NCBI GenBank assembly: GCA_024643365.1
Contig: JAHENC010000006.1
Coordinates: 1 to 64,000 of the forward strand
Origin: Crocinitomicaceae bacterium
GTDB taxonomy: Bacteria > Bacteroidota > Bacteroidia > Flavobacteriales_D > Crocinitomicaceae
Direction: 5' to 3'
Length of the DNA stretch: 64,000 bases
Shown here in pieces: positions 42,570 through 47,492 of the stretch (position 1 is its first letter; each line of letters begins with the position of its first letter). The position numbers and the translations under genes were made by a program. Below the pieces are notes generated by a model. The model made no database searches. It worked only from the letters and a program-made list of their open reading frames with translations, and was not told the origin of the DNA.

Positions 42570-45521
42570 CTACGACAATTCCATATACCGCACATCCTGC
42601 TGAAAAGGTAATTTTTGCATCCACCCTACTTGCAAACAATAGTAAGAAAACTCTTCTGTGACTACACCCCGCAAGTGATAAATTCCTTTACCATGAAAGG
42701 GGAAACGCCGCACACTCTCCGGAAAATGAACCGTATCAATCGTATCACCATTTTCATCAATAAAGGTCCCGAAATTCATCAAGTCCCCTTTTGTTGTCTT
42801 GGATTGTTTGATGGCCACCAAATAACCAAACAATTCAACGGTCATTCCCAGTAACGATTCCATTTCAACCGCCTTCACATGCTGCGCCGGAAGTGCTGAT
42901 TGAAGCAAGCGAAACGGATTACACAAGGGAAATCCCATTAATTCCATTTGCTCAAAATACGCTTCTTGCTCCTGCTCTTCTAAGTCTGGTAGTTCAAAAT
43001 GACGCGAACGAACCTCAAACAATTCGATGCTTCGCTCCCGTTGTGGATTCTTGTGGTGATGAAAATGTGCTTTCCACAACAATTCCTTGCGCTTCTCAGG
43101 AAAATCACGCAATGCACCAATCCGAATCAATAAAGACGTTTGCTCTAAAGGCACGTGAACACGACGGACAAAATCTTCGAAATCGCGAAATTTTCCCGCA
43201 CGGTTTCGCTCCTCAAAAATCTTAAACACCAATGACGCTTCTATTCCAGCAACTAAGTTGAAACCAAGAATTAATGCATTCCCACGCAACATACACTCAT
43301 ACGATCCTTCATTCACGGAAGGAGCATGAATCTCTGCGCCAAAACGACGCGCTTCATGAACATAAATCTCAGTGCGGTAATATCCTCCGAAATTATTGAT
43401 CGTCGCCGTCATGTATTCCAAGGGATAATGGGCTTTCAAGTACAAACTCTGGTAACTCTCCACCGCATACGACGCGGAATGTCCCTTCGAAAAAGCATAT
43501 CCCGCAAAACTTTCAATTTGACGCCAGACATCCATTGTTAATTTCTGATCGTAACCTTTCTTTGTACAATTTCCAACAAACTGTTCCTGTACGCGCAAAA
43601 ACTCCTCCCGCGATCGAAATTTCCCTGACATTCCACGCCGTAGGACATCCGCCTCCGCCAAACTGAGTCCAGCAAAGTGGTGCGCAACCTTGATCACATC
43701 TTCCTGGTACACCATCACACCATACGTTTCGGGCATGATTTCCAATAAAATCGGATGCGCTTCCTTGCGTCGTTCTGGATTGCGGTGACGCAAAATGTAC
43801 TCGCGCATCATCCCCGACTGCGCCACTCCTGGACGAATAATCGAACTTGCCGCCACCAATTCGAGGTAGGTTTCAACCTTCAATTTCGCCATCAGCATGC
43901 GCATCGCTGGGGATTCCACGTAAAAACAGCCCAAGGCTTTTCCATCCAACAACAACTGACGAACTTTCGCATCCTGCTTAAAATGTGCCACATCGTGGAT
44001 GTCGTGTGGTGGTTCTTCGGGACGATTATACGCAATCACTTCCAAGCAATCATGGATTTTCCCGAGTCCGCGCTGACTCAAAATATCGAACTTGTACAAG
44101 CCAACGTCTTCTGCTTCCATCATGGAAAATTGCGTCGTTGGATAGCCTTTCGGTGGTAAAAAAGTCGCGGAATACCAGGTCATTGGACGCTCGCTGATCA
44201 CAATTCCACCCGAATGCACACTCAAATGCGAAGGTAATCCTTGGATGTACTTGCTGTAACGTAAAACCAAGCGGGAGAATTGGTCCAACTTGTCAAATTG
44301 AAACTTTCCACTACTCAACAAATCGATTTCCGATTTCGGCAATCCAAAGACCTTTCCCAATTCACGAATCGTTGCGCGGTACTGGAACGTGTTATACGTG
44401 CACAGCCATGCCGTATGTGGGTAACGTTCAAATAAATAGCGTACAATGTCATCGCGGTCCTTCCACGAGAAGTCAATGTCAAAATCCGGCGGATTCTTGC
44501 GGTACAAGTTGATGAAACGCTCGAAATACAAGTCCAATTCCAGTGGATCGACATCCGTAATACGCAGCAAATACGCCACAATGCTATTCGCCCCACTCCC
44601 CCGTCCGACATGAAAATACCCTTTGGATCGCGCATACGAGGTAAAGTCCCAGGTGATTAAAAAATAGGACAGGTAATGCTTTTCTGCAATGATCTCAATC
44701 TCCATTTCGATGCGTTCGATGATTTCATCCGTCACCACGCCATACCGGTAATCGAGTCCTTCTGCACACAATTCCTTTAACAAGGCGCGATCTCCCTCAA
44801 TGCTTCCCGTATACGTCGTCGGATTTTGAGGCTTGGCATCGTCCCCGAATTCAAAGTTCACGCGGCAACGTCCAAACAAGGCTTCGGTTCGTTCGATGAT
44901 TTCGGGGTAATCGACAAAGTTGTTTCGCCATTCCTCATAGGACATAAAACGTTCGTTCTCATCCGCCTGGTCTTCTTTTTCCAACTTCGACAGCAGGCAA
45001 TTATGGTCAATGGCTCGCAGCAAGCGATGCGCGTTAAAATCCGCCTTCGACTGAAAGATCATCGATTGCAAAGCGATCAGTTTTCCACGCGGAACCTTCT
45101 TGTATGTTAAATTTAAGTAAATGACATCATGAACCTGTATTTCAATGTATTCGTGTTCTTTTAATTTTATTGGATAACGTTCAATTGGATAACACACATA
45201 ACAACTAGAAAAGTGAGGCAATTCCCTTGGAAAGGGTTTTCCCTGATGGATAAATTGACTTAAAAACACGTTCAATTCATTCAATCCATGATTGTTTCGT
45301 GCGATGATGGTGGCCATCCGTTCGCGTCCATTACGCAGTTCCACCCCCACCACTGCTGGAATTCCTTTTCGCTGCGCTTCCCGCACAAACGCAAGCACGG
45401 CTCCAGTCGAATTGATGTCCGCCAAAAACACATACGGATACGCACTATCCACCGCCCATTGCACAATCGCTTCCGGGGAATGAATGCCGTATTTCAAACT
45501 AAAATGCGACTTTGTTTTCAT
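42570..45521 (-). CDS. Short DnaE-type DNA polymerase III alpha subunit
   Basis: 983 residues, shorter than the replicative DnaE of Bacteroidota (about 1,400 or more, from memory). The catalytic aspartates are present: NPPDFDIDFSWKDRDD and YKFDILSQRGLG, with the fingers region GRGSGANSIVAYLL and MVYQEDVIKVAHHFAGLSLAEADVLRRGM. The N-terminal PHP domain has lost its metal ligands (KTKSHFSLKYG where HxHxxYS is usual, LADINSTG where TDH is usual), so it has no nuclease. An OB-fold follows near residues 880-950. It lies 6 nt after dinB, together forming a translesion-type cassette. No imuA/imuB partner is in view. Confidence 0.88.
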   Translation of the reverse strand: MKTKSHFSLKYGIHSPEAIVQWAVDSAYPYVFLADINSTGAVLAFVREAQRKGIPAVVGVELRNGRERMATIIARNNHGLNELNVFLSQFIHQGKPFPRELPHFSSCYVCYPIERYPIKLKEHEYIEIQVHDVIYLNLTYKKVPRGKLIALQSMIFQSKADFNAHRLLRAIDHNCLLSKLEKEDQADENERFMSYEEWRNNFVDYPEIIERTEALFGRCRVNFEFGDDAKPQNPTTYTGSIEGDRALLKELCAEGLDYRYGVVTDEIIERIEMEIEIIAEKHYLSYFLITWDFTSYARSKGYFHVGRGSGANSIVAYLLRITDVDPLELDLYFERFINLYRKNPPDFDIDFSWKDRDDIVRYLFERYPHTAWLCTYNTFQYRATIRELGKVFGLPKSEIDLLSSGKFQFDKLDQFSRLVLRYSKYIQGLPSHLSVHSGGIVISERPMTWYSATFLPPKGYPTTQFSMMEAEDVGLYKFDILSQRGLGKIHDCLEVIAYNRPEEPPHDIHDVAHFKQDAKVRQLLLDGKALGCFYVESPAMRMLMAKLKVETYLELVAASSIIRPGVAQSGMMREYILRHRNPERRKEAHPILLEIMPETYGVMVYQEDVIKVAHHFAGLSLAEADVLRRGMSGKFRSREEFLRVQEQFVGNCTKKGYDQKLTMDVWRQIESFAGYAFSKGHSASYAVESYQSLYLKAHYPLEYMTATINNFGGYYRTEIYVHEARRFGAEIHAPSVNEGSYECMLRGNALILGFNLVAGIEASLVFKIFEERNRAGKFRDFEDFVRRVHVPLEQTSLLIRIGALRDFPEKRKELLWKAHFHHHKNPQRERSIELFEVRSRHFELPDLEEQEQEAYFEQMELMGFPLCNPFRLLQSALPAQHVKAVEMESLLGMTVELFGYLVAIKQSKTTKGDLMNFGTFIDENGDTIDTVHFPESVRRFPFHGKGIYHLRGVVTEEFSYYCLQVGWMQKLPFQQDVRYMELS

Positions 45522-45527
45522 GATACC

Positions 45528-46745
45528 TTACACCCGTCGATTTGCCAATAACATCGGTGGTTCGCCATTGAATGGATTGTGGTGTCCGATTGTCCGAGCT
45601 TCCATGCCAATTGCCCGAATCACCGCGCGATCACCGTAGCGAATGCGAATCTGATCCAGTGCTTTGTACAGCGAAGCAAAATGCGCATCGTTGTCGAACA
45701 GGTTTAATTGATGGTGTCCAGAAACCAAGGAACTAAATCGAATGCCAATGAGTCGAACCAGCAAACGTCGGTTGTAAATGCGCTTAAACAACTCTGTCAC
45801 AACGGGCAGTAACTCATGATCCGCCGCGGTATAAGCGATTTGCTTTTGCAAAGTCTGCGTTTGGAAGTCAGAATAACGAATTTTCACCGTCACACAGCCC
45901 GTCAACTTCATTCCTCTGCGCAGTTGAAATGCGAGATTTTCCGCCATGGCTGCGAGGATTCCGTTCAGCTTGACCACATCGATTGTATCTTGATCAAAGG
46001 TGCGTTCCGTCGAAATGGACTTCCGTTCATTGTACTGTTCCACGGGCGAATGATCGATTCCCTGGGCTTTCTTCCAAATTCCCACACCGTTCATTCCCAG
46101 GGCGCCTTCCATCATTTCCATCGGCATGTCCTGCACCGTTTTGATTTTCCGTACGCCGAGGTTACACAAGGTTTGATAGGTCTTTGTTCCCACCATCGGA
46201 ATTTTCTTCACGGACAATGGCGCTAGGAAGTCCCGCTCTGTTCCATAGTCGACGTGAATTTGATTGTTCGGCTTCGCTTCGCCTGTCGCAATTTTGGACA
46301 CCGTTTTATTCTGGGATAAGCCAAAGGAAATCGGCAATCCTGTTTCCTTGAGGATGCGCTGACGCAATTCTCCTGCATACTTAAAAGTGCCGAAAAAGCG
46401 GTCCATTCCCGTGAAATCAATGTAGAATTCATCGATGGACATTTTCTCATACACGGGAACAGCCTCGCGGATGATGTCAGTCACCGCGCGTGAGTATCCA
46501 CTATACGTTTGTGTATTCCCCTTAATGACAATGGCTTCTGGACAACGTTCCCTCGCCATCTTCATGGGCATCGCAGAGTGAATACCAAACTGCCGTGCTT
46601 CATAACTACAGGACGCAACCACACCTCGGTCACTTGTCCCGCCAATCAAAATGGGCTTTCCAACTAAACGACTATCTAATAAACGTTCACAGGAGACAAA
46701 AAACGTGTCTAAGTCCATGTGAACAATCGAACGCAATACTGACAT
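45528..46745 (-). CDS. dinB: DNA polymerase IV-like Y-family polymerase
   Basis: 405 residues from the ATG at 46745. Y-family palm and fingers motifs: VHMDLDTFFVSCE (first catalytic aspartates), GGTSDRGVVASCSYEARQFGIHSAMP, MSIDEFYIDFTGM (second acidic pair), PISFGLSQNKTVSKIATGEAKPN, then the helix-hairpin thumb LCNLGVRKIKTVQDMPMEMM and the little-finger domain (about 240-350). The C-terminal tail, about 30 residues longer than E. coli Pol IV, may carry a clamp-binding peptide around HHQLNLFDND. It is the promoter-proximal gene of a dinB-dnaE operon and should make error-prone or lesion bypass DNA synthesis with its neighbour. Confidence 0.92.
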   Translation of the reverse strand: MSVLRSIVHMDLDTFFVSCERLLDSRLVGKPILIGGTSDRGVVASCSYEARQFGIHSAMPMKMARERCPEAIVIKGNTQTYSGYSRAVTDIIREAVPVYEKMSIDEFYIDFTGMDRFFGTFKYAGELRQRILKETGLPISFGLSQNKTVSKIATGEAKPNNQIHVDYGTERDFLAPLSVKKIPMVGTKTYQTLCNLGVRKIKTVQDMPMEMMEGALGMNGVGIWKKAQGIDHSPVEQYNERKSISTERTFDQDTIDVVKLNGILAAMAENLAFQLRRGMKLTGCVTVKIRYSDFQTQTLQKQIAYTAADHELLPVVTELFKRIYNRRLLVRLIGIRFSSLVSGHHQLNLFDNDAHFASLYKALDQIRIRYGDRAVIRAIGMEARTIGHHNPFNGEPPMLLANRRV

Positions 46746-46777
46746 GATCAAAAAGATTAAAGTAAATGCGTGCTATC

Positions 46778-46883: not shown

Positions 46884-47387
46884 ATGGAACTAACAACAAT
46901 TAAAAACAGCATTCATGAAATCAGGGGGAAACGCGTCATTCTTGACTATGAATTAGCAAAAATGTATGAGGTAGAAACAAAATACCTAAAAAGAACGGTA
47001 AGAAATCATTTGAAGAGATTTCCATCCGACTTTATGTTTGAATTAAGTACAGAAGAATGGCAAAACTTGAGGTGCAATTTTAGCACCTCAAGTTGGGGCG
47101 GAAAACGCTATCTCCCATTTGCTTTTACAGAACAAGGAGTAGCCATGTTAAGCGGCTTACTCAATTCTGATTTGGCCATTGAAATGAACATAGCCATCAT
47201 GCGCGCCTTTGTGATGATGCGTCAATGGAGCCTCACCTATCAAGAACTAGCGGAGCGATTAGAAGAGCTAGAGCGAAGCCATGGAAAGCGCTTTGATGGC
47301 ATTGAACAAGTGTTAAATTACTTTATACAGAAAGACAAACAAAGTACGCAGCAGAGGCAAAGAAAACAAGTGGGATATAAAAAATAG
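46884..47387 (+). CDS. ORF6N domain protein
   Basis: 167 residues from the ATG at 46884 (MELTTIKNSIHEIRGKRVIL), preferred over 46845 because it starts at the domain edge. The ORF6N (KilA-N-type, phage-derived DNA-binding) domain is complete: VILDYELAKMYEVETKYLKRTVRNHLKRFPSDFMFELSTEEWQNLR, then SWGGKRYLPFAFTEQGVAMLSGLLNS, AIEMNIAIMRAFVMMR. A coiled-coil tail (YQELAERLEELERSH) follows. An 11-bp perfect inverted repeat (47065-47075 / 47083-47093) lies inside the codons for LRCNFSTSS. Such genes are mobile and often found near phages; here it stands alone next to dinB. Function unproven. Confidence 0.85.
   Translation: MELTTIKNSIHEIRGKRVILDYELAKMYEVETKYLKRTVRNHLKRFPSDFMFELSTEEWQNLRCNFSTSSWGGKRYLPFAFTEQGVAMLSGLLNSDLAIEMNIAIMRAFVMMRQWSLTYQELAERLEELERSHGKRFDGIEQVLNYFIQKDKQSTQQRQRKQVGYKK
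47065..47093. repeat. Inverted repeat inside ORF6N gene
   Basis: ACTTGAGGTGC (47065-47075), loop AATTTTA, GCACCTCAAGT (47083-47093): perfect 11-bp stem inside the coding sequence for N-L-R-C-N-F-S-T-S-S. It is not a terminator (no T run, and the frame continues). Confidence 0.85.
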
Positions 47388-47390
47388 CAA

Positions 47391-47492
47391 ATGGTAATGA
47401 CAGCAGAGGAAATGAAAAAGTTGGTATCACAAATTGTGACACCAAGATGCAGAGACGCCGAAAATTCAACAAATTCGTTCTTCATTCGATGA
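47391..47492 (+). pseudogene. Fragment of a second ORF6N-like gene
   Basis: A 33-codon frame right after the ORF6N gene reads TAEEMKKLVSQIVTPRCRDAENSTNS. Its first part aligns with the ORF6N protein segment STEEWQNLRCNFSTSSWGG, and SQIVTS is the commonest version of this segment in ORF6N proteins (from memory). After PR the resemblance stops. It is thus a remnant of another allele or paralogue. It contains its own palindrome at 47421-47445, at the same codon position as the inverted repeat of the full gene. Confidence 0.5.
47421..47445. repeat. Near-perfect palindrome in ORF6N fragment
   Basis: Arms TTGGTATCACAA (47421-47432) and TTGTGACACCAA (47434-47445) with a single central base; 11 of 12 pairs match. 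It differs in sequence from the palindrome in the intact ORF6N gene but occupies the same codon register. Confidence 0.8.

Follow-up and report, generated by a model that had tools for sequence, protein, structure and literature searches.

The palindrome inside an ORF6N gene of the window, the whole 64,000-nucleotide stretch of contig JAHENC010000006.1 from a Crocinitomicaceae bacterium that was analysed, is very probably a two-fold symmetric operator of that same gene's ORF6N protein, placed within the coding sequence, self-limiting and exchanged as one module with the DNA-reading helix. This reading draws on sequence comparison. The palindrome was conserved across the family and independently of reading frame, a residue-base code predicted its bases in held-out genes, sites were nearly restricted to ORF6N genes and their vicinity, helix and site were swapped jointly, and a parallel was found in Bro-N genes.

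The window protein passed the PF10543 gathering score with 112.1 bits against a cut-off of 27.8, and its gene is flanked by genes for a DinB-like polymerase and a redoxin. The features of the locus, in window positions, are as follows.

46884..47387, + strand: ORF6N gene, 167 aa (PF10543, E 1.5e-32, and ORF list)
46944..46967, + strand: codons of predicted helix 21-28, first helix of the helix-turn-helix (AlphaFold2, mean pLDDT 92 for residues 21-30)
46977..47006, + strand: codons of the predicted recognition helix 32-41 (AlphaFold2 model)
46980-46982 (K33), 46983-46985 (Y34), 46992-46994 (R37) and 47004-47006 (N41), + strand: code residues from residue-base statistics
46980..47189, + strand: segment of about residues 33-102, including helix and palindrome, swapped for another allele in the G015 ortholog (alignment, sliding identity)
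47064..47094, no strand: in-gene palindrome AACTTGAGGTGCAATTTTAGCACCTCAAGTT, proposed self-operator, centre 47079 (family-wide tests)
47072-47077 (GTGCAA) and 47081-47086 (GTGCTA, other strand): half-sites of this palindrome
47169..47357, + strand: C-terminal long helices 96-133 and 140-158 (model only)
47391..47492, + strand: ORF6N remnant, 33 codons (ORF and G015 comparison)
47421..47445, no strand: remnant palindrome TTGGTATCACAAATTGTGACACCAA, centre 47433, one mismatched pair, half-sites ATCACA and GTCACA

The arms of AACTTGAGGTGCAATTTTAGCACCTCAAGTT are 12 nt each and 100% complementary around a 7-nt spacer; the perfect inverted repeat described in an earlier note on this DNA was thus present, with arms of 12 nt rather than the 11 given there. 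The near-perfect palindrome that the note placed in the adjacent fragment was confirmed, as was the same codon centring, both centres falling on the opening base of the codon that follows AAT or CAA (TTT and ATT). The remnant is a degraded part of a different ORF6N allele, and its half-site type accompanies proteins with R/K33, V/A/T34, Q37 and R41, a residue set absent from all three ORF6N genes found in its own genome. GGTGCNANNNTNGCACC had a single exact match in that genome, the palindrome of the window gene, with no other exact site of its type. The C-terminal helices probably form a coiled coil or serve dimerisation, judging from the model. At 42570-46751 on the minus strand a DnaE-like polymerase gene (PHP, DNA_pol3_alpha, finger, HHH_6) adjoins a DinB/ImuB-like gene (IMS, IMS_C), a pair that we take to resemble the ImuB-DnaE2 mutagenesis cassette.

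ORF6N genes were collected from 80 loci of a named genome scan, from relatives and Bacteroidota genomes, from a few viral contigs and from plasmids, some loci being duplicate assemblies across the two genome sets (e.g. L008 = G015 and L006 = G042). Segments were taken between the FEL and AFTE motifs and identical segments were counted once; those missing either anchor, containing N or shorter than 45 nt (40 nt for Bro-N) were excluded, and in one of the segment sets also those longer than 250 nt. A palindrome score of at least 8 was reached by 245 of 281 distinct ORF6N segments and by 1 of 538 equal-length neighbouring windows in the same genes. The mean score was 10.6 as compared to 3.4 for synonymous recodings, and for 239 segments the score was reached by at most 1 of 200 such recodings. 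Scores below 8 were found in 36 segments and below 6 in 8, and L161 lacked a palindrome although its protein aligns over residues 5-167. In 87 thinned frame-0 genes covarying pairing extended to the 13th base from the centre, was partial at 14-15 and was gone from 16, and position 4 was paired in 94% of the genes relative to 35% when right arms were shuffled between genes. The joint change of both arms, noted earlier for one gene and its neighbouring fragment, thus holds family-wide, and the codon-aligned comparison of Bacteroidota genes proposed in the earlier note shows the segment to be usually palindromic with covarying arms.

While 226 of the 245 palindromes lay in one reading frame, 19 had a core of the same kind (for example TCACAAATTGTGA) shifted to frame +1, where it gives VTNCDRF-like peptides instead of RSQIVTS-like ones. 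Since 19 genes carry the core in another frame, it is the DNA rather than the peptide that is conserved; the earlier note had rightly supposed that conservation goes beyond the protein. Some ORF6N genes hold two in-gene palindromes. Residues 63-78, which the palindrome encodes, were modelled without regular structure (pLDDT about 69-76), which may explain the tolerance of such varied peptides.

Half-site bases were compared by mutual information with up to 90 protein columns lying outside the part that the palindrome encodes, in 59 thinned genes and with invariant or gapped columns skipped. The strongest pairs were base 4 with column 37 (z 23.5), base 5 with column 37 (z 19.1), base 4 with column 34 (z 16.1), base 7 with column 33 (z 14.3) and base 3 with column 41 (z 12.1), followed by a next-best pair at z 6.3. 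These five pairs use columns 33, 34, 37 and 41 only. With a simple count of 100 degrees per residue, these columns cluster on one face of a helix, within 100 degrees, and in the AlphaFold2 model helix 32-41 stands behind helix 21-28 as a predicted helix-turn-helix. Model confidence for the window protein was moderate (pLDDT 80). A PDB sequence search with this protein gave nothing usable (best E 0.24). In a comparison with solved members of the KilA-N/Bro-N/APSES-like winged-helix fold, Foldseek with its model gave no match at E <= 0.001 (best E 0.19), and VIA-align scored granulovirus Orf22 at Z 6.9, RacA at Z 5.3 and Mbp1 at Z 4.9, all below 8.

Code tests were restricted to palindrome-bearing genes (score of at least 7 or at least 8) with all four residues aligned, giving samples of 216 of 281, 229 of 282 and 42 of 45, and say nothing about palindrome-less genes. 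Among the 216 genes, R34 was accompanied by G in 64 of 65, V34 by A in 60 of 61, Q37 by CAC in 92 of 97, E37 by CGC or CGA in 64 of 65, K33 by G in 137 of 137, R41 by C in 186 of 186 and N41 by A or an unpaired base in 22 of 22; R33 was compatible with A, G or an unpaired base. The chemistry of these pairings is sensible, with R34 on G, Q37 on A, E37 beside C, R41 on C (G opposite) and N41 on A. The class of the window gene, KYRN (K33, Y34, R37, N41), had the half-site GTGCxA in 8 of 8 genes, and its genome's two further ORF6N genes had KRER with GxCGCA and KREN with GTCGAA, so that all three fit the code. The second ORF6N gene of this genome, L001 (G000:C7:17243-17494, minus strand), has kept its palindrome and is apparently truncated soon after AFTEQGIAMLSS, in a 119-residue frame. 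Helix residues also correlate with operator bases in the LacI family, where the relation was found through local regulation; as outlined in PMC2978694, that code joins two residues to two bases at intergenic sites, whereas in ORF6N four residues are joined to four half-site bases within the gene.

Prediction rules trained on the 59 thinned frame-0 Bacteroidota genes gave 118 of 128 bases right in 16 held-out frame +1 genes (majority baseline 90, shuffled mean 78, maximum 98). In 17 genes labelled non-Bacteroidota, some of them with labels that belong to metagenome bins and may be wrong, 122 of 136 bases were right (baseline 84, shuffled mean 79, maximum 104). The held-out score was matched by 0 of 1000 shuffles in either set, and thinning the sets gave 94 of 104 and 69 of 80, respectively. 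Among viral-contig genes added later, 40 of 45 scored at least 8, and 307 of 336 bases were predicted in 42 of these genes (majority baseline 198, shuffled mean 205, maximum 247). The misses thus amounted to 10, 14 and 29 bases in the three sets, and base 7 was weakly predicted outside Bacteroidota (24 of 34). The frame +1 predictions argue against the link being one between two parts of the protein. These shuffles ignore phylogeny, and kinship was controlled for by the flat signal of the other columns and by disjoint close pairs: with the same residues at 34 and 37, 53 pairs had the same bases and 1 had different bases, and with different residues 13 had the same bases and 44 different ones (Fisher p 5e-18). 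Sites unfit for the gene's own helix were the in-gene site of L032 and the second sites of L223, L230 and L269. The latter three genes each hold two in-gene palindromes of different specificity, and genomes G361 and G365 each encode another ORF6N protein that fits the second site of L223 and L230. The outer arms (positions 8-13) also pair, with weak predictors (position 8 with column 33, z 8.7; position 9 with column 18, z 7.5), and covariation in the 87 thinned frame-0 genes gave no convincing residues reading positions 9-13.

The window's own locus shows an exchange of helix and site. It was compared, via the reverse complement of L145, with its ortholog in G015, a genome of the same genus whose Tpx protein is 94% identical. 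The window gene and its ortholog are nearly identical over about the first 32 residues and again from about 103 on, with the middle replaced: G015 has the helix RVQR with ATCACA where the window has KYRN with GTGCxA. As both are replaced in the same middle segment, helix and site travel together, and the switching between relatives that the earlier note had raised does occur here. Similar ends with a middle at no more than 60% DNA identity were found in 14 of 98 gene pairs, which are non-independent. Downstream of the gene, G015 has two remnants, one of the window-remnant type and one of the window-gene type, and the window has one. As donors of the switched segment the remnants found no support, with the window's spanning about residues 55-68 and the second of G015 about 43-72 (L008, L026), neither reaching the helix; the idea that the fragment is a recombination cassette was not borne out in this respect. 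Tandem ORF6N arrays with a spacing of about 504-517 nt occur in the relatives G042, G049, G039, G036 and others, and several relatives' contigs end within ORF6N genes, perhaps as assembly breaks at variable arrays. In type I restriction, the target-recognition domains of HsdS are likewise specificity modules exchanged by recombination between conserved flanks; the HsdS module is not known to contain its own target, unlike the ORF6N module, which includes a candidate target.

Bro-N genes (PF02498) appear to share the design of an in-gene site, with other site sequences. Among Bacteroidota Bro-N genes, 20 of 27 beat at least 99 of 100 recodings, and a score of at least 10 was reached in 17 of 27 as compared to 4 of 81 flanking windows, 3 of 30 loci having been dropped for want of a usable frame. 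With a centred 300-nt window this score was reached by 17 of 30 Bro-N and 38 of 57 ORF6N loci. A palindrome was present in 29 of 57 Bro-N genes of the 'QSIPSPKAEPF' type (0 of 55 downstream windows) and in 48 of 75 DinD-like genes (1 of 75 control windows). In 39 thinned DinD-like genes the bases followed columns 40-43 (z 8-13), with the distant column 110 also at z 8.5. Rha (PF09669) was considered as a third family; all 7 of its matches in 148 genomes overlap ORF6N hits, so that it does not count as an independent case.

One such palindrome, TGACCATTTCGAGGAGATCCTCGATATGGTCA, lies within the SOS gene dinD of E. coli, K-12 included, which makes the proposal directly testable. Of 5426 E. coli genomes, 1884 matched this 32-mer, each at a single place and 1864 of them at no less than 99%; of the 20 matches listed, 19 were dinD. 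Among ten dinD copies examined, six had the TGACCATTTCGAGGAGATCCTCGATATGGTCA allele with helix SEYRHF, and four had a divergent module that encodes the helix RDWRNF and carries ACCATTTCGTTGAAACCACCAAAATGGT; this palindrome is weaker (score 6) but resembles the one in the viral L502 (SDWRNF). The divergent module covers about the first 246 nt, at 54-74% identity per 50 nt, with the remainder at 90-100%, and helix and palindrome differ together between the two alleles. Out of 40 sampled matches spread over 4668 matching genomes, 21 match dinD only from nt 247 on. Two divergent 5' modules of dinD thus segregate within E. coli (e.g. L593, L595, L596 and L597 against L454 and L598).

The distribution of sites was examined by scanning 296 Bacteroidota genomes with the pattern GAGGTNNCANNNTGNNACCTC, which gave 41 places compared with 2 for the reversed pattern. 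By coordinates, 29 of these were within PF10543 matches (one only at the edge); 5 were ORF6N remnants, 2 were beside an ORF6N gene or fragment, 2 matched the fixed pattern bases only, and L347, L351 and L352 were unassigned. The fetched loci, 1.56 Mb in total, contained 227 distinct ORF6N-type palindromes scoring at least 9 in regions of ORF6N similarity, another 40 no more than 200 nt away and 5 farther off, with 0 for the reversed half-site control. For the type of the second gene of the window's genome, a search of that genome with one mismatch gave its own site and four others, and the reversed control also gave four.

This distribution bears on a mobile palindromic element, of the REP or Rickettsia-palindromic-element kind, inserting into ORF6N genes. 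Extra palindromes and positions in another frame would suit such an element, but the rarity of sites outside ORF6N genes, remnants and edges and the tracking of site sequence with the helix residues of the host gene make it extremely improbable. A REP-like dispersed element was rejected, as no many-copy spread independent of ORF6N was found. Of the recognition or resistance site of a mobile element raised in the earlier note, the recognition site is supported and the separate mobile element is not. Only slightly less remote is a hairpin in the ORF6N mRNA, acting in translation control or as a terminator: a strong hairpin could form at a fixed position, but arm mismatches at positions 2-13 of 133 distinct palindromes comprised 25 G.T and 34 A.C, and this lack of a G-U excess speaks against a sense-strand RNA hairpin. 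Moreover, no T-run follows the window palindrome from 47095 on, the bases track a DNA-reading helix, and similar sites are also found upstream of some genes. The suggestion of an mRNA structure was thus left unsupported and an intrinsic terminator is disfavoured; where the earlier note saw a hairpin, the evidence favours a two-fold symmetric double-stranded site for the protein's own helix-turn-helix.

A recombination hot spot, or an attC-like single-stranded hairpin, could also drive the exchange, with the link to the helix being mere linkage, and both the joint swapping and the tandem arrays are in keeping with this. Linkage, however, would raise the whole swapped segment, whereas only four helix positions stand out, and the breakpoints lie off the palindrome, at about codons 32 and 102 in ORF6N and at nt 247 in dinD, about 40 nt beyond it. 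The comparison with attC is based on these outside breakpoints and on neighbours annotated at few loci only, and we consider the hot spot improbable. Much the same, with a slightly better chance, applies to a parS-like centromere or loading site for a DNA-organising protein: it would suit a symmetric site that lies in or beside its binder's gene and is also present on plasmids and phage contigs, but there is mostly one in-gene site per gene, and the upstream sites sit where promoter control would act.

For the favoured self-operator, physical binding, the dimer, roadblock or repression and the biological purpose are what we infer from these patterns. In a dimer, each subunit would contact one half-site through its recognition helix (residues 32-41), with residues 33, 34, 37 and 41 reading bases 7, 4, 4-5 and 3 from the centre, respectively. 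The operator would lie within coding sequence, in a loop tolerant of very different peptides, which explains why the ORF6N loop retains its DNA but not its peptide, and with the operator inside it the gene would always carry its own address. Binding there would most likely block RNA polymerase elongation and thereby limit the protein's own synthesis. With less than about 100 bp between helix codons and operator, the two would move as one module in recombination, a new specificity bringing its matching site, and such a module shows how specificity can evolve by recombination without loss of the target. Linkage under frequent recombination is our preferred reason for the in-gene placement, exclusion of like-addressed copies being the bolder one.

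In the latter case binding would still be in the gene, compatible with a self-operator, and the selected effect would fall on other copies: the resident protein would silence ORF6N or Bro-N genes that arrive with its own specificity, with diversification of the code as escape. ORF6N and Bro-N genes on phage contigs and plasmids, several specificities within single arrays and genomes, foreign-specificity sites adjoining ORF6N genes and the joint helix and site swapping in ORF6N and dinD are consistent with this. On the other side, pairs of equal specificity within a genome numbered 8 of 85 against 11.9 expected, which was not significant, as 263 of 2000 shuffles gave so low a number; the observed number is also biased downward by the single counting of identical segments. 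We therefore hold exclusion as a tentative proposal, with odds clearly against it. An equally speculative extension is that ORF6N and Bro-N genes might be self-addressed regulators, with reading head and target in one exchangeable DNA module, each copy repressing itself and incomers of the same address in a private addressing language across phages, plasmids and chromosomes, with recurrent switching of specificity, E. coli dinD included.

To our knowledge, the ORF6N and Bro-N families of bacteria and phages are mostly uncharacterised, and sequence alone here yields a likely target and a readable DNA code for two families of DNA-binding proteins, as well as a rule for which proteins could cross-regulate. 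Operators within coding sequence contribute to repression in the case of E. coli PurR and of lac operator O2, which, unlike the ORF6N site, are not known to be family-wide or to move with the DNA-binding domain. The nearest likeness is C.Kpn2I, which according to PMC6237814 binds within its own ORF, where the bound protein stalls RNA polymerase; its authors suggest that own-gene binding may be widespread among C.Kpn2I-like proteins. As in C.Kpn2I, the predicted site of the ORF6N product lies inside its own ORF, in our case by sequence prediction. C.Kpn2I is a restriction-modification C-protein, whereas ORF6N and Bro-N are other families with the site in most members tested, coupled to the helix by a code and swapped with it, unlike in C.Kpn2I. 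The window gene itself was rejected as a C-protein, as it matches ORF6N and its neighbours are DnaE-like and DinB-like polymerases and a redoxin. Phage FNU1 proteins with ORF6N and Bro-N domains are annotated as antirepressors, and for such antirepressor-like phage proteins, of the same or related Pfam domains, the accessible part of PMC6591296 describes no in-gene site. Titles and abstract openings on ORF6N, KilA-N, DinD and in-gene autoregulation, with most subscription journals outside this scope, described no code-matched exchangeable self-site. In-ORF autoregulation is thus already known, and what appears to be new is a self-site that matches the code and can be exchanged, in both ORF6N and Bro-N genes.

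Upstream sites would add to control in a minority of genes. Of 270 genes, 25 had an ORF6N-type palindrome in the 160 nt ahead of the start, compared with 9 of 267 control windows further up, and in 10 of these 25 the half-site was identical to the one within the gene (random mean 5.1, maximum 11). Own-type sites at -140 to -20 were present in 14 of 220 genes (shuffled mean 7.3, maximum 12 in 100 shuffles). Rare specificities recurred upstream, ATGCCA in L195 and GTTTCA in L052; in L195, a Butyrivibrio plasmid gene (GARR), ATGCCA is found both in the gene and before it. As many upstream sites (15 of 25) differ from the gene's own, cross-regulation between ORF6N genes is suggested and is probably needed as well. 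Upstream of L032 are three ORF6N-type palindromes of three specificities, and upstream of L053 three of two specificities, three and two sites, respectively, being of other than the gene's own specificity; these clusters could possibly be small regulatory circuits. On the Bacteroides ovatus plasmid NZ_CP081918.1, an integrase gene directly followed by the ORF6N gene is preceded, at a distance of about 56 nt, by a strong ATCACA-type palindrome (L198, position 1858). GC-rich terminator-like inverted repeats also recur beside ORF6N genes or arrays in relatives, CAAAAGGCGGCC...GGCCGCCTTTTG and TCGACTCCGCTCGAT..., at L150, L158, L169 and L182 and at L148 and L170.
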